Shown piece after piece: positions 1,507 through 25,123 of a DNA stretch of 25,576 nucleotides. This DNA comes from a virus, in the IMG/VR virus record IMGVR_UViG_3300041405_000025, positions 1 to 25,576 of that record; one strand, given 5' to 3'. A model generated the notes under the pieces. The model saw only the letters and a program-made list of their open reading frames with translations. It was not told the origin of the DNA and made no database searches. Every line of letters starts with the position of its first letter. The stretch's first letter is position 1. The position numbers and the translations under genes are program-made.

Positions 1507-2658
1507 ATGAATAAGTCCCGTATAACGGATATGGATGTAAAGAACAAACCCGAAGTAATCTCAATGGAGTCTGATTGGGTCAGCCTACCTGATGACGTAG
1601 CTGCATTAGAGATCTATGACACTGAGCGTGCCCATAAAGCCCTTGTAGAACTCGCTAAGCGTGTAGACACTGTACGTGACCAACCTTCACTTGAAGCTTA
1701 CCAATGGACCTATCAGACGCTTACAGGGATGACAGATCTAGTTGATCGTAAGAGTATCTCACTGGAATCCTTTAGTGGTGGTACCATCTCGAAGAAGACG
1801 GGTTTAGCACAAGCTATTCGTGCAGAAGCTGGTAACCTAGCTGCTAAGCTTGAGATCTCGATTGAGAACTATGCTCGTGACATCAAAGAAGACTTCTTGA
1901 TTATAGCTAAGACCTATGATGGTGCACATCGTAAGTTGAAAGCAACTGATGCGGATATCGAAGAAACTAAGAATACCAAAATCGAAGTTAACCATACTCG
2001 CATCTTTGATATGTTTATGGTTAAAGATGTTTTCAAAGGTAAGGAACCAATTCAGTGCATTCGTCAAGAAACTCAGTATCTCGAACGGTTGACTCAAATC
2101 GTAGGTAAAGGTGTTGAACGTCTTGCCAAGGATGTACGTGAATTAGGTGAGGAAGATAAGCTTGAGCGCAATGGTCGTGATCTTCCCGATACAAACGCTT
2201 CAATGCACCTGATGTTTAACCGTAAAGCTAAGGTCAAGGAAGGACAGTTTGAGAACGATTCTAAGAAAGTTCGTAATCCCAAAAAGACCCACAGTTGGGG
2301 ACAACACTTCTGGATTATCTTCGGCGCTTTAGCGTTTGGCTCTGCCGGTGAAAACATGGCACGCTGGATTAATTCTGACAAAAAGGATTCGGAAGCAAAA
2401 GTCACCAATAGTTTGACTGATATCCATAAGTTCATCCGACATGTCGAAGGAATGGATGAGATCGTTGACGAGCTGGCAGGTCACGTACAAGACCTGATCG
2501 AACTCTTCAAGAAAGTCAATGAAACACAAGAATCAGCGCTGAACCGCCGGACCGTTCCGATCATCGAACTGGCGAACTTTATTATGAAACAGATTATCGA
2601 TATCACTAAAGGTACCGATACTCTGTTCACCCGACTCGTACGAAAACATAGCAAATAA
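1507..2658 (+). CDS. phiKZ-type internal head (inner body) protein, paralog A
   Basis: The start ATG has a good ribosome site (AGGTAAAGAAA). The 383-residue product is mostly helical and charged. It carries several S-x-E sites of the type cut by the phiKZ prohead protease: SME at 19-21, SLE at 61-63 and SLE at 85-87 (SISLESF, the best placed). It is a clear paralog of the next gene: SLESF..LAQAIRAEA aligns with SVESY..LAKDIRAHA, a WGQHFWIIFGALAFG-type aromatic segment (near residues 257-272) aligns with its WFWAIVLGWVG, then IHKFI with IHKVI and PIIELA with PILELA. Expected fate: packed in the prohead core, N-terminal pro-region removed, mature part in the capsid inner body. Membership is inferred from these patterns, not a search. 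Confidence 0.8.
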   Translation: MNKSRITDMDVKNKPEVISMESDWVSLPDDVAALEIYDTERAHKALVELAKRVDTVRDQPSLEAYQWTYQTLTGMTDLVDRKSISLESFSGGTISKKTGLAQAIRAEAGNLAAKLEISIENYARDIKEDFLIIAKTYDGAHRKLKATDADIEETKNTKIEVNHTRIFDMFMVKDVFKGKEPIQCIRQETQYLERLTQIVGKGVERLAKDVRELGEEDKLERNGRDLPDTNASMHLMFNRKAKVKEGQFENDSKKVRNPKKTHSWGQHFWIIFGALAFGSAGENMARWINSDKKDSEAKVTNSLTDIHKFIRHVEGMDEIVDELAGHVQDLIELFKKVNETQESALNRRTVPIIELANFIMKQIIDITKGTDTLFTRLVRKHSK

Positions 2659-2668
2659 GGTACCTACC

Positions 2669-3793
2669 ATGGCACGCGTAAGCCCAACAATGAAACATGC
2701 TAAACCCGCTCTGACCGCAGAGCAAGCAGCAATCGAAGACTTCATCAATGCTATTCCTCCGGCTATCATCCGTGAAGGTGATCCAGCCGACTTCGTCGAC
2801 AACTCTATTACTGAAGTAGTGGATACCATCGACACCGATCTCGACCCAATCGTGGAATCGACCGTAGTTGCTGAAAACCTCGATGATCTGGCTATTGATG
2901 TGGATGGTGTCACCTCCGCTGTAGCGATGGAATCGTTTACTCGCATTTTCCATCAGATGTGTGATATGTCTGGTCACCCTGTGGCCTCGGTCGAATCGTA
3001 TAAACCAACTAAAGGTGGCGTTAAGCGTCTGGCTAAGGATATTCGTGCACATGCCGATATGATCCGTGGTTGTGTTAACCTGAGTTTCGAAGAGTATGTC
3101 GATAAGGTCGATGAAGCTATCGGTACGTCGATGTCCAACTATAAACAAGCTCTGGGTGAACTTAACCGTATCAATCAAGACATCCATGTACCTGACGGTG
3201 AAGTGGTCATTAACCACAAAGCTGTTTGGCAGCTGTTCCACATGGGTGGTAAGTTGATGGACCTGCGTGACTTCAGTAAAGAAGTTAACGGCGTCAAAGA
3301 ACTGACTGCTATGGTGGCCAAGGCCAAAGATAACCTGAAATCCGGTGGTGACGGTAATGCTCTGAACGGATCGGGTGAAGTGAAACTGATGAACAACACC
3401 ACCGTTAAAATTTCTAATGGTCGTGCTGTATTCAATACCGAAGCTGCTCCTAAGCCAGATAAAGCCTGGACCGGTGGTGACTGGTTCTGGGCTATCGTTC
3501 TTGGTTGGGTTGGCATCGCCTACCGCATGTGGAAAGGCGGTAACGGTGAGGAGAAGACCCAGAAAGAGCAATCCATTCAAGCGATCCATAAAGTGATCGA
3601 TGAGATGAAGAAGATGGCACCGCTGGTAGAAAGCCTTGAGAAAGAAGCCAAAGAAGTCATGCAGATCGCTGGTGATGACGCTGACAAGAAACGTGCTGCT
3701 TCTCCTATCCTGGAACTGGCTTCGAAGACTATTGCTCACGTAACTGCCGTGACCTATGGTGCTAAGAAGATGTTCGAGAAGATGGGCGAGTAA
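2669..3793 (+). CDS. phiKZ-type internal head (inner body) protein, paralog B
   Basis: The ATG follows AAGGTACCTACC, ten bases after the previous stop, so the two paralogs form one operon. The product is 374 residues. Residues 1-88 are acidic and look like a propeptide, with AME at 86-88; a second site, SVE at 107-109, lines up with SLE85-87 of paralog A and is the likely cut. Downstream, regularly spaced features match paralog A: LAKDIRAHA, NHKAVWQLF (aligned with NHTRIFDMF), WFWAIVLGWVG, IHKVIDEM, PILELASK and a Y/KG near the end. The W-rich stretch around residues 271-285 could insert in or contact a membrane or the inner-body core. It is terminated by the bidirectional hairpin at 3814. 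Confidence 0.8.
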   Translation: MARVSPTMKHAKPALTAEQAAIEDFINAIPPAIIREGDPADFVDNSITEVVDTIDTDLDPIVESTVVAENLDDLAIDVDGVTSAVAMESFTRIFHQMCDMSGHPVASVESYKPTKGGVKRLAKDIRAHADMIRGCVNLSFEEYVDKVDEAIGTSMSNYKQALGELNRINQDIHVPDGEVVINHKAVWQLFHMGGKLMDLRDFSKEVNGVKELTAMVAKAKDNLKSGGDGNALNGSGEVKLMNNTTVKISNGRAVFNTEAAPKPDKAWTGGDWFWAIVLGWVGIAYRMWKGGNGEEKTQKEQSIQAIHKVIDEMKKMAPLVESLEKEAKEVMQIAGDDADKKRAASPILELASKTIAHVTAVTYGAKKMFEKMGE

Positions 3794-9340: not shown

Positions 9341-9676
9341 TTACTTCTGATTCTTCACACGAGCTTTCGCCAAAGCACGACGCAGGTGCTTACGGAACTT
9401 GGCTTTGTGAATGTACATGCTATCACCGATCCGTTGGAAGATCTGTGGGCAAGTATCATGTAGCTTGAAGATTACACCAGGTACCGAGATCCAGTGACAA
9501 CCACGAGCAGCTGGGTAAAGCTGATCGATTTTATCAGAGACTAGGTCCAAGAAGGCATCATTACGATAACCTACATAGACCGCGTAATACTCTTTACCTT
9601 TACGGTTGTAATACTTTAGTTGACGACCAGTTTCTACGTCAGCTGCAACACGTTCAGCGTATGGACTATACATCAT
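9341..9676 (-). CDS. Hypothetical basic phage protein, 111 aa
   Basis: The start is ATGATG at 9676/9673, overlapping the end of the 469-aa gene by 11 bases, with GAGG just upstream. The product (MMYSPYAERVAADVETGRQL...) has an aromatic strand-like region (KYYNRKGKEYYAVYVGYRND) and a very basic C-terminus (HKAKFRKHLRRALAKARVKN), suggesting contact with nucleic acid or another acidic partner. No family is recognised. Its coupling to the 469-aa protein suggests related roles. Confidence 0.75.
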   Translation of the reverse strand: MMYSPYAERVAADVETGRQLKYYNRKGKEYYAVYVGYRNDAFLDLVSDKIDQLYPAARGCHWISVPGVIFKLHDTCPQIFQRIGDSMYIHKAKFRKHLRRALAKARVKNQK

Positions 9677-11075
9677 TCAGCCTCGACACATTAAGACGTT
9701 CAAAGAGATCGACGCGATAACGATCGTGATCGATATACTCGCCGGTGTGATAATTGCGGCATACCCATGCACCTTGCAGGGCATTGCCTTGTGGACTAAC
9801 ACCATACTCCCGCGTGATGACATGGAAGTCATCTTCACGTTCGAAGTGGTAGCCTTCCAATTCTACCTTACGTGGATTGGTAAGCTTCGGTTCGATAGGC
9901 TCAAACCCAGCCAGCATCAAAGCACTATCTGCCAACAATGCGCTATCGGCAGGCTCATCGCCCATGGCGTTGGATTCCAGGCTGACTTCCACATCGCCGA
10001 GTTGACGAATAGGGGCTTCGCGTGAAAGCAGATCCAGGGTGCCACCATCGTAATGAGAGATATGACTACGCAGTTCAGCCAATGCCTCAGTGACTGCTTT
10101 GGTGTGATCAGTAGCTTTATCGAACTCAGGAGCCTTTTGCATCAAAGCCTGAGAAAAAAGATTCGTGGATCGACGTAGAAGTTTTTGCTCCATACGCTCT
10201 TTCATGAGTACGGTCCATACTACACGCTGGATACGAGCGACCGGACTATCCGATTGATCTTTCTTGAACTCGACTACAACTTCATCACGGGTAAAGGTAG
10301 GATTAGCTACCAGTTCACCTATGATGCGTTCAGCGACCTCAGTGATCTCTTCGGTCGAAGTCGTATCGAATGGATTCAACTTCAGTAGTTCAGATGTGAC
10401 CACCAACTTCACGAAGTGCAGATCGTTTCCACGCTCCGGGGCTAGTTTCATTGGCTGGGTTGAATTCGTATAGTGGTTCTTGTAGACTGTGGCGCATGCA
10501 ACCGCTGGATCGGTAATGCCTTGATGGATCAAGCTGAGTACAATGTTGGAGATATCAGGGTAGCGCAACTCGATATCGTTCAAACGGTACATGGCCTGAA
10601 TTGCTTTACCCATCGGTTCCATGATTTCACGCGATGGATGTTCCATAGCGCGCAACGCGGGCATTTGAAACAGTTGACGTAGTCCTGTATTCATCATGTT
10701 GTAACCTTGTGGTTGAAATTCCGGCCAGCCAGTTGTGTCGAAATCTGGATTTTTACCAGAAGCGATTTGAGCTGCGATGGAATCCATGAATATCCCGAAT
10801 GAACGGGTACGGTTTTCCCCGCTCAGAGTCATAGTCAGTTTCAGATAACGATCTATCAAATCGGCGCCCTCTGGCGTACTAACACCGAGGCACAGATCAT
10901 GACAGTTCTTACGGATTTGATGGAAGCTTGCAACCACTACATGCGAGGGTTCGAAATCGCGTGCGTGTGCAGACTTATCATCCAGCTTTGGGATCAAACC
11001 TTGAACACGGAACAGATCCATGATGCGGTCAATGATCATCTGATCAAAACCACCATTTGCTTTGGTATTGAACAC
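9666..11075 (-). CDS. Large unrecognised phage protein, 469 aa
   Basis: The start is the GTG at 11075, preceded by AAGGACTAAAGCT. It is by far the largest gene of the accessory block. The first ~300 residues are helical (FDQMIIDRIMDLFRVQGLIP..., IQAMYRLNDIELRYPDISNI), followed by a charged linker and a C-terminal section that looks beta-rich (VELEGYHFEREDDFHVITRE; AWVCRNYHTGEYIDHDRYRV). One SLE (365-367, in VEVSLESN) resembles a prohead-protease site; whether the protein enters the head is unknown. No catalytic motif is recognised. It could be structural or a host-interaction factor. Confidence 0.75.
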   Translation of the reverse strand: MFNTKANGGFDQMIIDRIMDLFRVQGLIPKLDDKSAHARDFEPSHVVVASFHQIRKNCHDLCLGVSTPEGADLIDRYLKLTMTLSGENRTRSFGIFMDSIAAQIASGKNPDFDTTGWPEFQPQGYNMMNTGLRQLFQMPALRAMEHPSREIMEPMGKAIQAMYRLNDIELRYPDISNIVLSLIHQGITDPAVACATVYKNHYTNSTQPMKLAPERGNDLHFVKLVVTSELLKLNPFDTTSTEEITEVAERIIGELVANPTFTRDEVVVEFKKDQSDSPVARIQRVVWTVLMKERMEQKLLRRSTNLFSQALMQKAPEFDKATDHTKAVTEALAELRSHISHYDGGTLDLLSREAPIRQLGDVEVSLESNAMGDEPADSALLADSALMLAGFEPIEPKLTNPRKVELEGYHFEREDDFHVITREYGVSPQGNALQGAWVCRNYHTGEYIDHDRYRVDLFERLNVSRLNDV

Positions 11076-13195: not shown

Positions 13196-13690
13196 TTAAT
13201 CCCATTTGTCATCTTGTTCCATCCAAGGTGGATAAACTACCACGATTGGATTAGGCATGTGTGAAGCGAATAGCTTAATGGTGTCTTTAACGTCGCTAAA
13301 GTTTAGACCACCATTAGCACAGCCTAGGGGTGGGATTACGATACGCCATGACGGCTCGATATCCCCTTCTTCATTGTCGACTGATGTTACTGAGTCGACC
13401 ATCCACTGTAACCCAGCGGATATGTATTCTGCTAGCGATGGATCTTGCCAGCGGTCCTTCGTAGGAAACATCATGTAGCGTTTCCCATTTTCAGCTTGAT
13501 AGATTACCGGATTACCGATTGTAATAATCTTCATCCGGCAATCATGGCGATAACGTTCGTATAGGTCGGGATGGGCTTCTTTGAACGACTTCGCTAGCCC
13601 TTTTCCCATCACTCCAACGCAATTAACTGTGATAAGATACAGATCACCTTCCTGTCGGAAGATGTCGGTACCGATTACGAATTCAACCAT
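13196..13690 (-). CDS. Macrodomain protein, DarG/TARG-like ADP-ribose hydrolase
   Basis: The start is the ATG at 13690 (MVEFVIGTDI) with the ribosome site GGAGACCTATC; an upstream ATG (13726) lacks one. The 164-residue product is a complete stand-alone macrodomain. The first loop, VNCVGVMGKGLAKSF (residues 22-36), closely matches that of DarG-type antitoxins, including the lysine at 30. The second, IPPLGCANGGL (119-129), matches the phosphate-binding loop. Family role: binding ADP-ribose and removing it from DNA or protein. No DarT toxin or DarG C-terminal domain is present. In a phage such a protein could reverse DNA ADP-ribosylation by host DarTG defence, or act on NAD metabolites; this is inference. 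N130 lies where DarG proteins I recall have Asp. Confidence 0.85.
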   Translation of the reverse strand: MVEFVIGTDIFRQEGDLYLITVNCVGVMGKGLAKSFKEAHPDLYERYRHDCRMKIITIGNPVIYQAENGKRYMMFPTKDRWQDPSLAEYISAGLQWMVDSVTSVDNEEGDIEPSWRIVIPPLGCANGGLNFSDVKDTIKLFASHMPNPIVVVYPPWMEQDDKWD

Positions 13691-13749
13691 GATAGGTCTC
13701 CATTTAGATGTGTGTAAATCATTCATCTAATTGGGCAACCTGTATTACT

Positions 13750-19622: not shown

Positions 19623-19651
19623 CGGCATAAAGTCCTCCCCGAAGGGAGGAC
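19623..19651 (-). terminator. Terminator after the 944-aa gene
   Basis: A perfect 8-bp stem (GTCCTCCC / GGGAGGAC) with loop TTCG on the - strand is followed by TTTATGCCG and preceded by CATAACG. It shares the CATA-hairpin-TTTATG layout of the hairpins at 1212 and 3814. Confidence 0.8.
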
Positions 19652-19659
19652 CGTTATGT

Positions 19660-22494
19660 TTACTTCGACGCTTTCTTCGCAACACCACACAGGGCATCTG
19701 CAACTTCAACGCAGTGTTTAGTGATGAACTTGTAAAGATCCACGTGAGACTGAGCCAACAGCTTCATTGCGGTAGCTGCTGCATCAACGCCGGACTCATC
19801 CCCTTTCACACGGCTATATGCACTAATAGGCAATGCACGAGTACGAGTAGTACGAATCTTGGTAGCCAAGCTAACAGCACGATCACCGGTAGTGTTCGCC
19901 AGCTTACGAGCAATGCCAACGTAAGTCTTAGCCATCTTCAGCAGGTTAGCGATATCACCCTTGGACAGAGTGTACGAGGTGTTCTCGCCAGCCTTAGCAG
20001 CTTTAACGCCAACCGGAATACCAGTGTGACCCAACGCTTCAATCTTCTCGGCACGATCACTACCGGAACCCTCACGGATCTCCAGTTTGTAACCACCGAG
20101 CAGACCTTTATCGAAAGCAGCATTAGGGAAGCTAGCCTTGATGTTCTTCAGGGCCGCCAAGCCATCGAGTGCTTTACCGATTTCATCTTCCGAACCGGCA
20201 GAGATAATATCGTTAACCCCTTTAACTACAGTCGACTGAAGTTGTTCAGAAGCCTTGATACCTTTAACAGCGATATCGGTAGTAATACCAAGATCGGATG
20301 CTACAGCTTTGACAAGGTTGGTTTCATCGGTAGCCAAATAACCACGAACACCAGTTACTTCACCAGTAGTAAAGCTCGAGTCTTTCAGTTGGATCAGACA
20401 CAGGTCAATTTGTTTATCCAATGCATCGGCACGAGAAGTCACTTTATCAACCAGAGCACGGGACCACCAGTTCTCGATCTTCTGTGGTAGTTGACTACCC
20501 AACATGGTCAGACGAGAGATCATGCCACGGAAGGATTCCAGAGTAGCAACGTAGGCCAGATCCATGTCCTTACCGCCGTAAGATTCCAGCGATACTTTAG
20601 CAGGGGTCTTAGTGCCGACAATGCTGTCCAGTTTAGCCAAACGTTTACGCAGCGGTTCAGCCTCAGCGTTCATGTAAGCCAACAGACCAGGAGAGTACGA
20701 TTCGTTAGCGATACCATCTTCCAACAGTACGCGGAACTTCTCGAGGGACTCTTTCTCTTTCTGGAGTTCTTCGATGGTCTTATCGGCTAGCTCAGCGTCC
20801 TTCTCTTCTTTGTCGCCCCACTCACCAACTTCAGCGGCGTCAGCCATAGCTTCTTCTACGTCTTCATCGGTAGTGCTAGTGTCAACATCCTTAACCTCAA
20901 CTTCGCCTTTATCGAAGTCAGCTTCGGTTTCATCGTCATCGGCTACTTCAACCTGACCACCATCAACATCTGCATCAGCTGGTTCGTCAACAGCAACTTC
21001 TACATCGCTGGTATCGGATACGTCTGCATCTACAGGTGGAGCTTCATCGACTACATCACCAGCTACGTCAGTGGTACCTTCACCGGTTTCATCGCCAGAA
21101 GTGCCTTCAGCCAAAGGTTGTTCGTCTTCAACTACACCATCTGTGGTAGTCCCCGAATCTTCCTCAACTTCCGCGGTAGCATCAGCTACTGCATCTACGC
21201 CGTCTTGGAGATCTTCAGCGGTGTCTTCGGTAATGGATTCTTCTACGGTAGCAGCGGTACCATCTGAATCGCCCATGTCACCGCCAGCAGCGGTCAGATC
21301 TTCTTCAGCATTAACGCCAAGGTCTTCGGCACCTTCCAAAGGAATATCATCGTCTTCTGCGACTGCATCATCGGTTTGTTCAGTGTCGGTAGTTTCAGTA
21401 ACTGCGTCATCACCATCAACCACTTCAGCATACTTGTTTACTTCTGGACCTTCATCCTCAGTAACTTCTGCGGTAGTGTCGTCAGTAGTAACTGCATCAC
21501 CTTCAGCTGCACCGCCGTCACCGGCTTCTTCAGTAACCGCATCTGTCGCATCACCGGTAGTTTCATCGGTAACTTCAGCAGCTGCGTTCTGATCATCGAC
21601 TTGGGTGTCTACGTCAGTATCAGTACTACCTTCTTCAGTAACTGCCGAATCGTCTGTACCAGTTTCTTCGGTTCCGTCACCAGCATCACCAAGGTCTTCA
21701 CCAGTAGTCTCGCCGTCAGTAACATCCCCACCAGTATCACTATCAGTAGTATCGTCGGTCCCATCAGTTTCCCCACCTTCAGCAAAGTCATCTGCACCTT
21801 CGAGAGGTGTGTCGTCATCTAAGCCTGCATCGTCAGTAGACGTATCGCTACCAAATGCATCACCGCCATCAGTGGATTCACCACCATCGGTATCGGTTTG
21901 GGTGGCATCATTGATTGCATCACCGAGTTCCTCGTCAGCGCCTTCTTCTGCTTCCGCAGCTTCTTGATGAATATTCTTGGCTTCGGCTTCTTCCTCAACC
22001 TCGTCTTCTACCTCATCTTCGGCAGCATCTTCTTCAGCATTGATCGCGGCTTGTTCTTCAGTAACGGCATTACCGTTAGCATCCAATTCACCACCACCTT
22101 CTGCGGCATCACCACCAGTTGCTTCTGCGGTAGCTTGTTGAACGATCTCATCTTTGGCGGATTGTGCTTGTTCGCCTTCTTGCAGGAGTTCAGTCATCTC
22201 AGAAGCAACTTCTGGAGCAACCTGAGCATTACCGGTGCCTTCCAGCTGAGCGTCATCAGTAGATTCAGTCTGAGTGATGTCTGCTTTATCGTCAGGAGTG
22301 ATTTCATCCTTAGGGGTAGATTGACCAATGTCATCACCGGCTTCGGTTACGTCAGCTTCTGGTGTTACGGGCGCAGTTACTTCTTCAGCATCTGCATGAG
22401 AGATTGCGCCTTGCTCACTGAGTTCTTTTGCAGTCTCTTCGGTGTGATCCTCTTTCCCATAAGAAAAGAGATTTCTTGAATTCTTTTTCAACAT
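19660..22494 (-). CDS. Internal head protein with giant acidic propeptide, 944 aa
   Basis: The ATG at 22494 follows AAGGTAAACAAC. After a short basic start (MLKKNSRNLFSYGKED), residues ~15-545 are low complexity and made almost only of D, E, T, A, G and V, with imperfect repeats of PLEGA(D/E)D. Then comes a coiled-coil-like segment (ELADKTIEELQKEKESLEKF) with the ELQ..L..LE..YSPGLLAYM pattern shared with the pro-region of the 453-aa gene. A prohead-protease-type site, SLE (635-637, VSLESYGG), follows. The remaining ~307 residues are helical and end YKFITKHCVEVADAL, similar to YIVRYIKGHCVAIDAQ in the 453-aa paralog. Inferred: the acidic part scaffolds the prohead core and is destroyed on maturation. 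Confidence 0.85.
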   Translation of the reverse strand: MLKKNSRNLFSYGKEDHTEETAKELSEQGAISHADAEEVTAPVTPEADVTEAGDDIGQSTPKDEITPDDKADITQTESTDDAQLEGTGNAQVAPEVASEMTELLQEGEQAQSAKDEIVQQATAEATGGDAAEGGGELDANGNAVTEEQAAINAEEDAAEDEVEDEVEEEAEAKNIHQEAAEAEEGADEELGDAINDATQTDTDGGESTDGGDAFGSDTSTDDAGLDDDTPLEGADDFAEGGETDGTDDTTDSDTGGDVTDGETTGEDLGDAGDGTEETGTDDSAVTEEGSTDTDVDTQVDDQNAAAEVTDETTGDATDAVTEEAGDGGAAEGDAVTTDDTTAEVTEDEGPEVNKYAEVVDGDDAVTETTDTEQTDDAVAEDDDIPLEGAEDLGVNAEEDLTAAGGDMGDSDGTAATVEESITEDTAEDLQDGVDAVADATAEVEEDSGTTTDGVVEDEQPLAEGTSGDETGEGTTDVAGDVVDEAPPVDADVSDTSDVEVAVDEPADADVDGGQVEVADDDETEADFDKGEVEVKDVDTSTTDEDVEEAMADAAEVGEWGDKEEKDAELADKTIEELQKEKESLEKFRVLLEDGIANESYSPGLLAYMNAEAEPLRKRLAKLDSIVGTKTPAKVSLESYGGKDMDLAYVATLESFRGMISRLTMLGSQLPQKIENWWSRALVDKVTSRADALDKQIDLCLIQLKDSSFTTGEVTGVRGYLATDETNLVKAVASDLGITTDIAVKGIKASEQLQSTVVKGVNDIISAGSEDEIGKALDGLAALKNIKASFPNAAFDKGLLGGYKLEIREGSGSDRAEKIEALGHTGIPVGVKAAKAGENTSYTLSKGDIANLLKMAKTYVGIARKLANTTGDRAVSLATKIRTTRTRALPISAYSRVKGDESGVDAAATAMKLLAQSHVDLYKFITKHCVEVADALCGVAKKASK

Positions 22495-22596: not shown

Positions 22597-23709
22597 TTAG
22601 TTGTTCGCTTCGCATACGTTCAAGATAGCCGACATATTACGGCAACTCAATGCAAGCAAGTTTAGGTACGGGTTTACCAGCCAGTTGTTGAATGCTTCCA
22701 GTAGCATGATAAACGATGTTGCGTTCTGTAGTGCATCGCCCGTGTATTGACCTTGAGCAACGCCTTTACGAATTACCTCAAGATAGTTGACGATATCTTT
22801 AACTCGACCATTACGTCGCATCCGCGGCACCATACCAATACGAGCTGCAAGGTCCGTGGAAGTTACGATAACCTGACGAAGGATGCTTTGTTCGATGGTC
22901 CGAGCGAATACGTCAAATTCAAGATACTCTGGCGGCGATTTAGGTTCAGCGTCAGATGGTTGCAGGACAAACTCTTGACCAGTGAGTTGTTCAACTGGAT
23001 CACTCGATGCTTTCTTACTCAATACCAATAGTTGTTGGTTACCCAGTAGGTGAGGACCCACCATTCGATACCCGTCATTATTGAAACCTGCGCCATTAGC
23101 AAATGCAGTCGGACTGACGTTATTAAGAATAGCTACCAATTGATCCAAGTGTTGAGGGGCGGCTGGATCTAGTTGGATAATAGCTGGGATTACTTTCAAC
23201 AGATCTTCTTCTTGATATTTGAAGTACTTGCGGATGATAACATCCACCGACTTCAAATACATTAGAATACGCTGCGGGTCATTGACCGGTTTGAAGTTAA
23301 CGCATAGGTTAGGGATGCGTGTTTCGATCTTAAACTTACCGTCCTTGTTAACTCGTCGGCTCGCTCGAGACGTAGTATTAATAGCCTCAGCGCGCGTTAC
23401 GATCCGATTAAGGTTCAAGCTAATCGCGGTAGTCCCTTCAGTGAGATCTTCCATCATTCGAATCAAGAACTTAATCAATGTGTCAATCAACCTACCGAGA
23501 TATCCCGAGTCTTCCTCTTCCATACTGAGAGAGAAACCTTTAGGGAACACGTGCTTTGGATTATGGTAGTGTTCAATACCACCAACCAGATACATGATGT
23601 CCTTAGCTAGTGCATCATCGACTTCCATGAGATCACTCATAACCGATGGTCCAGCATTAGGTGCCACTACGGGAACCTCTATTTCAATGTCTTGTCGGTC
23701 ATCACTCAT
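22597..23709 (-). CDS. phiKZ-type internal head protein, 370 aa
   Basis: The start is the ATG at 23709 (ribosome site TTTAGGAGTCACT). The open frame continues to 23865, but that would run through the terminator at 23727 and overlap the upstream gene. After an acidic N-terminus (MSDDRQDIEIEVPVVAPNAG) comes an SME site at 62-64 (GFSLSMEEED), then a helical body (YLGRLIDTLIKFLIRMMEDL; TTSRASRRVNKDGKF; AEAINT). It lies between two genes of the internal-head type and shares their pro-region plus helical-core layout, so it is probably another member, although the similarity is weaker than between the + strand pair. Confidence 0.7.
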   Translation of the reverse strand: MSDDRQDIEIEVPVVAPNAGPSVMSDLMEVDDALAKDIMYLVGGIEHYHNPKHVFPKGFSLSMEEEDSGYLGRLIDTLIKFLIRMMEDLTEGTTAISLNLNRIVTRAEAINTTSRASRRVNKDGKFKIETRIPNLCVNFKPVNDPQRILMYLKSVDVIIRKYFKYQEEDLLKVIPAIIQLDPAAPQHLDQLVAILNNVSPTAFANGAGFNNDGYRMVGPHLLGNQQLLVLSKKASSDPVEQLTGQEFVLQPSDAEPKSPPEYLEFDVFARTIEQSILRQVIVTSTDLAARIGMVPRMRRNGRVKDIVNYLEVIRKGVAQGQYTGDALQNATSFIMLLEAFNNWLVNPYLNLLALSCRNMSAILNVCEANN

Positions 23710-23719
23710 AGTGACTCCT

Positions 23720-23748
23720 AAATAAAACGGAGCACCGAAGTGCCCCGT
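23720..23748 (-). terminator. Rho-independent terminator with UUCG loop
   Basis: On the - strand a 9-bp stem (ACGGGGCAC / GTGCTCCGT, one G-T pair) with TTCG loop is followed by TTTTATTTAGG, just after the stop at 23762. Confidence 0.8.
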
Positions 23749-23761
23749 TAGGTTTACTGGA

Positions 23762-25123
23762 TTAGTCTTCCGACTTAGCTTTGGTGATGACTTTGATTTG
23801 TGCATCAATCGCAACACAGTGACCTTTGATGTATCGTACGATGTAATCCACAATCTCACCCGCACGCGGAGAAGACTCTTGAACCATCTTACCGACCTTC
23901 ATGGTCATCTCGCTGTAGACATCACCGGTTTCTTCGTCAGCTTTAGCAGCTGAACGTTTAACCGCTTCGATCAGCTTCTTACCAGCTTGAGAGATCTTTT
24001 CTGTTTCTGGACGAATGTCTTTCAGTTGGATGATGAGTGCCTTGATGTCACGTACCAATTTACGCAACTCTGCGGTTGACGAAACAGGCAATTCTTCGGT
24101 CTGACCAAGAGCAGGTTCTTTGCTATCGTGGTAAGTCACACCGATCGACAAACCGTGTTCACTAACGTCCATGGTGTAACCACCCGGCAGTTCATCTTTA
24201 TCAGCTTGTTGATCGATCAGGAATTGTAGAGGCTTGGAGTACTGAGCAAAGAATGCATCCAGTTCCTCAATACCTTTACCGTTGGCATCGAACTTAATCA
24301 CCCCTTTAACCATACCGTCAAGAAACTTAACGATTGCATCAGGATATGAAGTCGAAGCAAACTGTGCCAAGCCATGAATATCTGGGGATACCACGCGATC
24401 GATTTCTTCACCGTGTTTCAGGATGGTTGAAGCACATTGGAAAGTACCTTCGCCACCACTGACTTTAATCTTACTCAGTTGACCATCCAGTTTATCAACT
24501 GCACGCTCTACATGAAGAATGCCATCCAGCAGGTTATGGCCGGTACGTTTGATGAACTCAAGAATCTTCTCAACAATCGCGATGAACTTATCGAGTGCAC
24601 CTTTAGCCATCGACTTAATGTCTTCAAGCGAAATGGTAGCGAGGTCGTGTTGTTCACGTGGACTCTTAGCATTGAACGATTCCATAGAACCGATCTTGCT
24701 AGTCAAGCCCAGTTGCTGTTGTGCGATCTGCATGTGTACTTGCAGTACTTCAGCGGTCTGATTCGAGATACCGTTAAAGCCAGCCTTACGAACGATCGTG
24801 TGATAACATTCCATAGCTGTTTGCAGAGCGACGAGTTGATCAGCCTTGGCTTGCAGTTCTTCGTGTTCAGCAATTACAGCTTCGGTCGGTACGATTGGCA
24901 CCTCTTCAAGAATCTCAGTAACAGGTACGTCTTCTTGAACGATCGGAGCAGGAGTAACTTCTGGTACGATAGGTTGTTCGGTCAGTGGGATATTAACCGA
25001 TGGTTGATCTACGGCGGCAACGGGCGCCAGTACCGGAGTATCAATAGTAGCTTCAGCCGGAATGGTCTGAAACTCTTCTACACTGACACCAACGTCAGCA
25101 AGTGCATCTTTTACAAGACTCAT
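23762..25123 (-). CDS. phiKZ-type internal head protein with Pro/Val-rich propeptide
   Basis: The ATG at 25123 follows AAGGTAACCACT. The product is 453 residues. Residues 22-82 are rich in P, V, E and I (VAAVDQPSVNIPLTEQPIVP), then comes HEELQAKADQLVALQTAMEC, a helical pro-region also seen in the 944-aa protein, ending at SME (146-148, GSMESF), the likely cut; a further SLE is at 165-167. The mature part is helical (LDKFIAIVEKILEFIKRTGH; ELRKLVRDIKALIIQLKDIR) and ends YIVRYIKGHCVAIDAQIKVI. phiKZ-group relatives are packed in the capsid, cut by the prohead protease and form the inner body. Membership is inferred. Confidence 0.8.
   Translation of the reverse strand: MSLVKDALADVGVSVEEFQTIPAEATIDTPVLAPVAAVDQPSVNIPLTEQPIVPEVTPAPIVQEDVPVTEILEEVPIVPTEAVIAEHEELQAKADQLVALQTAMECYHTIVRKAGFNGISNQTAEVLQVHMQIAQQQLGLTSKIGSMESFNAKSPREQHDLATISLEDIKSMAKGALDKFIAIVEKILEFIKRTGHNLLDGILHVERAVDKLDGQLSKIKVSGGEGTFQCASTILKHGEEIDRVVSPDIHGLAQFASTSYPDAIVKFLDGMVKGVIKFDANGKGIEELDAFFAQYSKPLQFLIDQQADKDELPGGYTMDVSEHGLSIGVTYHDSKEPALGQTEELPVSSTAELRKLVRDIKALIIQLKDIRPETEKISQAGKKLIEAVKRSAAKADEETGDVYSEMTMKVGKMVQESSPRAGEIVDYIVRYIKGHCVAIDAQIKVITKAKSED

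Follow-up and report, generated by a model that had tools for sequence, protein, structure and literature searches.

Identification of a gp97-type inner-body protein precursor

The window analysed here is a 25.6-kb IMG/VR fragment, the features of which are collected in Table 1. Its minus strand contains an ORF of 944 aa, with an ATG start and an AAGG a short way 5' of it, which encodes the gp97-type precursor of an inner-body protein in a jumbo phage of the phiKZ group, phiKZ_IP-like with a long N-terminal extension. According to an end-to-end profile match (Table 1), and to tblastn matches with 201phi2-1 gp159, Viktualia, Phabio, PhiPA3 gp102 and others, the protein is an orthologue of phiKZ gp97, 201phi2-1 gp159 and PhiPA3 gp102 (phrog_27483, phrog_27812). 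It resembles them in gene order, charge density of the acidic tract, cut motif and a mature domain of around 300 aa, and differs from them in sequence only, the identity of the mature domain being 55% with 201phi2-1 and 26% with phiKZ. The gene sits between gp96-type and gp98-type genes, within an arrangement that reproduces the gp95-gp101 order of phiKZ and is common to the window and loci L001-L007, except that 201phi2-1 and Viktualia have one gene more. No near relative at the DNA level was found among phage records. When distant mature domains were used as queries, matches were obtained in Pseudomonas phages only (68 records); two weakly matching loci, L013 and L014, were discarded as false matches.

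Table 1. Features of the gp97-type gene and of other loci in the window.
Feature	Position	Strand	Basis
gp97-type inner-body protein precursor, 944 aa	19660..22494	minus	phrog_27483, E 1.5e-202 (residues 1-943 of 944); tblastn to 201phi2-1 gp159
Basic N-terminal targeting-like peptide, residues 1-15; [S/A/G/T]-x-E motif is G-K-E-15	22450..22494	minus	16 orthologues; same layout in gp95-type paralogues
Acidic disordered tract, residues 16-529 (15-545 in the first-pass annotation)	20908..22449	minus	Composition
DDDTPLEGADDF, motif copy 1, residues 226-237	21784..21819	minus	Aligned copies in L009-L011, 201phi2-1, Viktualia, Phabio
EDDDIPLEGAEDL, motif copy 2, residues 380-392	21319..21357	minus	Alignment and repeat analysis
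GE-x-D-[I/V]-x-DVD motif, residues 530-538, end of acidic tract	20881..20907	minus	Conserved in orthologues
Helical module before the cut, residues 562-637, common to phiKZ_IP paralogues	20584..20811	minus	AlphaFold2 helices; hhalign to gp95/gp93
Predicted maturation cut motif, S-L-E 635-637	20584..20592	minus	[S/A]-[L/M/V]-E in 16/16 orthologues
Possible second cut, T-L-E 651-653	20536..20544	minus	S-L-E there in 11/16 orthologues
Mature domain, residues 638-944, mainly alpha-helical, net +7	19663..20583	minus	Composition, AlphaFold2, profile and structure matches
gp95-type internal head protein (phiKZ_IP), upstream neighbour, short acidic propeptide	23762..25123	minus	PF12699, 147 bits
gp96-type internal head protein	22597..23805	minus	phrog_12254; start 23805 assumed, listed ORF begins 23865
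Strong GC-rich hairpin GTCCTCCCCGAAGGGAGGAC between gp97 stop and gp98 start	19632..19651
Macro-domain protein, counterpart of phiKZ gp104	13196..13726	minus	PF01661, 27.8 bits (cutoff 22)
469-aa ORF	9666..11075	minus	PHROG families of unknown function, matched by the last 50 residues only
Head-protein gene of tandem pair	1507..2658	plus	phrog_24630
Head-protein gene of tandem pair	2669..3793	plus	phrog_24630

Phage phiKZ gp97 has been published as an inner-body protein with an S/A/G-x-E motif that is cleaved and injected (PMC10449902), which bears out the earlier assignment of the window protein to the internal head proteins; it is one of six inner-body proteins, for each of which 100-200 copies are reported (PMC13282480). 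That proteins of the gp97 family carry a long propeptide that is removed is therefore already known. What is new is that 15 further orthologues carry the acidic tract, with the charge per residue held while D and E interchange; that the tract is placed between two conserved modules, a targeting-like N-terminal peptide and a helical module before the cut; and that the remainder of the protein, once freed of the tract, scores as the phiKZ_IP internal-head family. A frameshift or an assembly artefact as the source of the tract was ruled out, since it is open and acidic in the 15 other orthologues and the codon usage of the ORF broadly matches that of its neighbours.

Two further observations concern gp97-like genes. 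The window harbours, on the strand opposite to gp97, two related head-protein genes in tandem, and the first of the 2669-3793/1507-2658 pair is a 47% orthologue of 201phi2-1 gp193, whose record describes it as similar to phiKZ gp97; the pair may represent distant, short-propeptide relatives of gp97. At L016:6180-6900, around 480 bp of the gp97 gene are present as two direct copies separated by a stop codon, which may reflect either misassembly or a true duplication within the gene.

Composition of the acidic tract

The giant acidic tract described in the first-pass annotation was confirmed. Residues 15-545 (531 residues) include 187 D and E against 8 K and R, for a net charge of -179, and 81% of them are D, E, T, A, G or V, the remainder being mainly S, Q, L, P, I and N, with no Cys. 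Charge-hydropathy analysis places this stretch on the disordered side. It does not constitute the whole propeptide, however, as had been implied: residues 1-14 are basic (+4) and residues 546-637 form a conserved, mostly helical module, after which residues 638-944 show a pI of 9.1. The charge is extreme above chance, because the 201phi2-1 orthologue, with -188, is the most negative among the 461 ORFs of at least 100 aa in its genome, the runner-up having -96.

The drifting short repeats that had been noticed in the tract turned out to be weak. Shared 5-mers are in modest excess (9 versus 3.3 in shuffled sequences, p = 0.016), but there is no tandem array, the best score given by Tandem Repeats Finder being 40 for a period of 12 and about two copies, and with these results tandem-repeat expansion was ruled out as the origin of the tract. 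Nor are [S/A]-x-E sites inside the tract enriched over shuffles, their counts being near those of shuffled sequences in most orthologues. There is one clear recurrence, DD(D)xPLEGA, both copies of which (Table 1) are kept in place among the closer relatives while the flanking sequence drifts; it is possibly a short binding motif.

Acidic tails were also observed in other head proteins of these phages. The C-terminal end of 201phi2-1 gp271 (L026:24356-26245), corresponding to phiKZ gp177, a protein that is also cleaved and injected (PMC10449902), is acidic over around 140 aa, and that of 201phi2-1 gp214 (L025:24043-26796) over around 90 aa, a tail also present in phiKZ gp129. Acidic disordered segments thus recur in the phiKZ-group head.

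Conserved modules and cut motifs

In the alignment of 16 full-length orthologous proteins, a [S/A]-[L/M/V]-E motif coincides with E637 of the window protein in every case, so the S-L-E cut site proposed in the first reading of the sequence is where it had been placed and is conserved. The window protein has further motifs at residues 583-585 (S-L-E) and 651-653 (T-L-E). Close to the N-terminus, all 16 proteins have a [S/A/G/T]-x-E motif with its E at position 12-15, the chance rate for any single case being 10-52%. The gp95-type paralogues begin alike, as illustrated by HPP-Temi (MLKNIHKYITSLEDF in gp97 and MLRSIHKYTSSLEEF in gp95), and phiKZ gp93 is cut at SLE-13 (PMC5694885). Judging from the alignment, this conserved peptide of around 13 residues would be targeting-like and carry its own cut motif. 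At the other end of the tract, G530, D536, V537 and D538 are each present in 15 of 15 non-redundant orthologues.

The computed mass of phiKZ gp97 is 87.8 kDa, and cleavage at the site aligned with E637 would leave a product of 32.9 kDa, while cleavage at the next motif, SLE-532, would leave 30.7 kDa. The mature inner-body proteins of phiKZ are reportedly of 26-31 kDa, according to an abstract from 2012, and this range would favour the second site, which in the window protein is TLE-653. The final N-terminus could follow this motif instead of E637.

Relationship with the phiKZ_IP family

No Pfam match was obtained for the full-length protein, probably because of its composition. The C-terminal 399 aa (residues 546-944) match PF12699 (phiKZ_IP) with 31.4 bits, above the cutoff of 27; only two of eight orthologue segments match at E <= 1. 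Comparison of the orthologues with gp95/gp93 profiles using hhalign gave 97.1% (E 7e-11, 334 columns), versus 0.9% for the gp96 control. Apart from gp97 orthologues, a Foldseek search of BFVD with the AlphaFold2 model (pLDDT 78) retrieved internal head proteins and structural virion proteins of jumbo phages, with E down to 7e-11. The model also matches phiKZ gp86 in the capsid structure (8y6v_G) with a Z of 9.9 over 216 residues, a value that helical bundles can reach by chance, and all other PDB entries matched were helical bundles of unrelated proteins. For the gp95-type neighbour, modelling from the single sequence gave a pLDDT of 39, too low for the model to be used.

The phiKZ_IP members listed for phiKZ in 2017 were gp93, gp94, gp95, gp162 and gp163, with gp97 absent (PMC5694885). 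Given this absence and the profile matches, gp97 would seem to extend the family by one divergent member, with not all orthologues reaching the Pfam cutoff. With the members in phiKZ and with SPN3US gp53 and gp54 it has in common the profile, the helical module before the cut, the S/A/G-x-E cut motif, the targeting-like N-terminus and, possibly, the helical fold; it differs in the charge of the propeptide, which in the other members is only about -10 to -30.

Variation in length, sequence and charge among orthologues

The propeptides of the 16 orthologues range from 392 to 646 aa, with a charge per residue of -0.286 to -0.338, while the mature domains have 300-318 aa and a charge of +3 to +11. 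With 637 aa, the window propeptide is among the longest, only that of L009 (646 aa) exceeding it. The comparison of related phages suggested in the first-pass annotation, as to whether length varies freely, thus reveals wide variation; the length itself, which had been considered unusual, is so with respect to other head proteins but is the rule among gp97 orthologues. The exception is Noxifer, where the protein encoded at the same gene position still has the N-terminal motif, the module of helices and the cut site, but with only around 75 acidic residues between the two modules and a propeptide of around 140 aa.

Within the tract, the coefficient of variation is 23% for the D fraction and 17% for the E fraction, but 4.5% for their sum; the two fractions are inversely correlated (r = -0.89), and the standard deviation of D+E is 0.016, versus 0.048 if they were independent. 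With phylogenetic contrasts the correlation is -0.69 (sign-flip p = 0.04) and the variance of D+E is 31% of that expected without compensation, although with 15 contrasts this is a small sample and a modest test. Compensation between D and E is support for selection on charge, not proof of it. Charge is conserved more than sequence because the two residues replace each other, and in distant orthologues the identity of the tract is no better than that of shuffled sequences (0.28 and 0.29 for the window versus phiKZ). These comparisons suggest that the acidic tail is old and that its charge has been kept while its sequence has not.

Possible roles of the acidic propeptide

The extension may work as a removable acidic core segment, in a way similar to gp67 and gp22 of phage T4. 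We favour this reading, although tentatively, because the charge is T4-like and no gp22 counterpart had been confirmed by 2017. The charge per residue of T4 gp67 is -0.31, the same as that of the tract, and the acidic charge of the T4 core, mainly due to gp22 and gp67, is about -25,000 per prohead, while that of the gp97 propeptide would be -18,500 to -37,000, assuming the 100-200 copies reported for phiKZ; this likeness shows neither homology nor role. As of 2017, no counterpart of the T4 scaffold gp22 had been confirmed in giant phages, and a core or scaffold role of the long propeptides had been raised (PMC5694885); within the wider group, a further candidate for the scaffold is SPN3US gp22 (PMC7411985). 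Like the gp97 propeptide, T4 gp67 and gp22 are acidic, present in many copies and cut by the prohead protease (a cut predicted in our case), but they are stand-alone proteins degraded to fragments, while in gp97 the acidic part belongs to the same polypeptide as a conserved mature domain, which is retained in the head. The N-terminus of gp97 is in turn reminiscent of the capsid targeting sequences of T4 IPI-III, of around 10-20 N-terminal residues, with the protease motif at the end and common to several internal proteins; no acidic tract follows these sequences, unlike in gp97, where the targeting role of the peptide is putative.

According to this model, the short N-terminal peptide would target the gp97 precursor to the growing prohead core, where the disordered polyanion would fill and hydrate the core and hold the inner-body proteins apart and soluble, constituting the acidic scaffold phase that in T4 is supplied by separate degradable proteins (gp67, gp22). 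A gp175-type protease would then cut the N-terminal motif, many [S/A/G]-x-E sites derived from composition, and SLE-637, perhaps also TLE-653; the small peptides would exit, and the folded, slightly basic domain would remain in the inner body, to be later injected. Charge density, instead of the sequence or its precise length, would be the target of selection. A tract of giant size is not indispensable, given that Noxifer, with a genome of 278 kb, manages with its much smaller one.

It had also been proposed that the polyanion stands in for DNA, which would mean that in the empty prohead it covers those inner-body surfaces that face the DNA, to be swapped for the genome after cutting. The slightly basic mature domain (pI 8.7-9.4 in the five orthologues computed) would be in line with this, and if all copies were confined to the inner-body cylinder, of published dimensions 24 x 105 nm, the local density would be, by arithmetic only, 0.4-0.8 charges per cubic nm, around one third to two thirds of that of packaged DNA. 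We nevertheless consider it unlikely: the total charge of the propeptides is just 3-6% of that of the genome at 100-200 copies, and simple neutralisation does not fit, because the mature domain has +3 to +11 and the propeptide -112 to -197. The increase of propeptide length with genome size (Spearman 0.73, n = 15) was lost once phylogeny was corrected for (p = 0.28, or 0.39 when Noxifer is left out), so that this scaling was dropped.

A role as a solubility and timing tag, by which the tract would maintain the cytoplasmic solubility of the precursor, or of its partners, and block polymerisation of the inner body until the protease acts, seems less likely again. Long acidic disordered tails are known solubilisers, and other phiKZ_IP precursors also start with smaller acidic propeptides, but paralogues with what may be the same fold manage with charges of -20 to -30, and Noxifer with about -30. 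The earlier suggestion that basic core partners are kept soluble finds little support, as the cluster encodes only neutral or acidic precursors of other inner-body proteins and no strongly basic protein stood out among the virion proteins of 201phi2-1.

The propeptide could also be a plain long targeting or spacer element in which only the end modules work, length and charge reflecting drift of a low-complexity linker. The conservation of these modules while the tract ranges from around 75 to more than 500 aa, and its shuffled-level identity in distant orthologues, would agree with this; the charge per residue, steady at -0.29 to -0.34 though D and E each vary, and the reduced D+E variance in the contrasts make it improbable. 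That some of the acidic material is retained in the head in the form of small peptides, with a role in genome condensation or injection, is highly improbable: processed fragments of core proteins are kept in T4 heads (PMC9026906) and some SPN3US propeptide peptides persist in particles, but the propeptides of most processed SPN3US proteins are undetectable there (PMC10052503). The persistence of those few peptides indicates that the removal before packaging assumed in the first-pass annotation, while likely, need not be absolute.

Returning to the acidic core segment removed at maturation, the tail may do the job of separate scaffold proteins, since it appears to be ancient and to have kept its charge but not its sequence. 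A bolder version of this idea, which we regard as doubtful, sees the missing scaffold of the phiKZ-group prohead in the gp97 propeptide, which would be acidic, fused in cis and selected for charge and not for sequence; if true, scaffold removal and cargo maturation would be one and the same cut. How T=27 jumbo-phage heads are assembled, given that no scaffold like T4 gp22 is confirmed for them, has been described as open, and an acidic segment that is conserved, supplied in cis and destroyed at maturation would be a concrete candidate, the close 201phi2-1 orthologue making its test practical. The conservation of charge and not of sequence would also offer a clean natural case for the role of a disordered polyanion in virus assembly.
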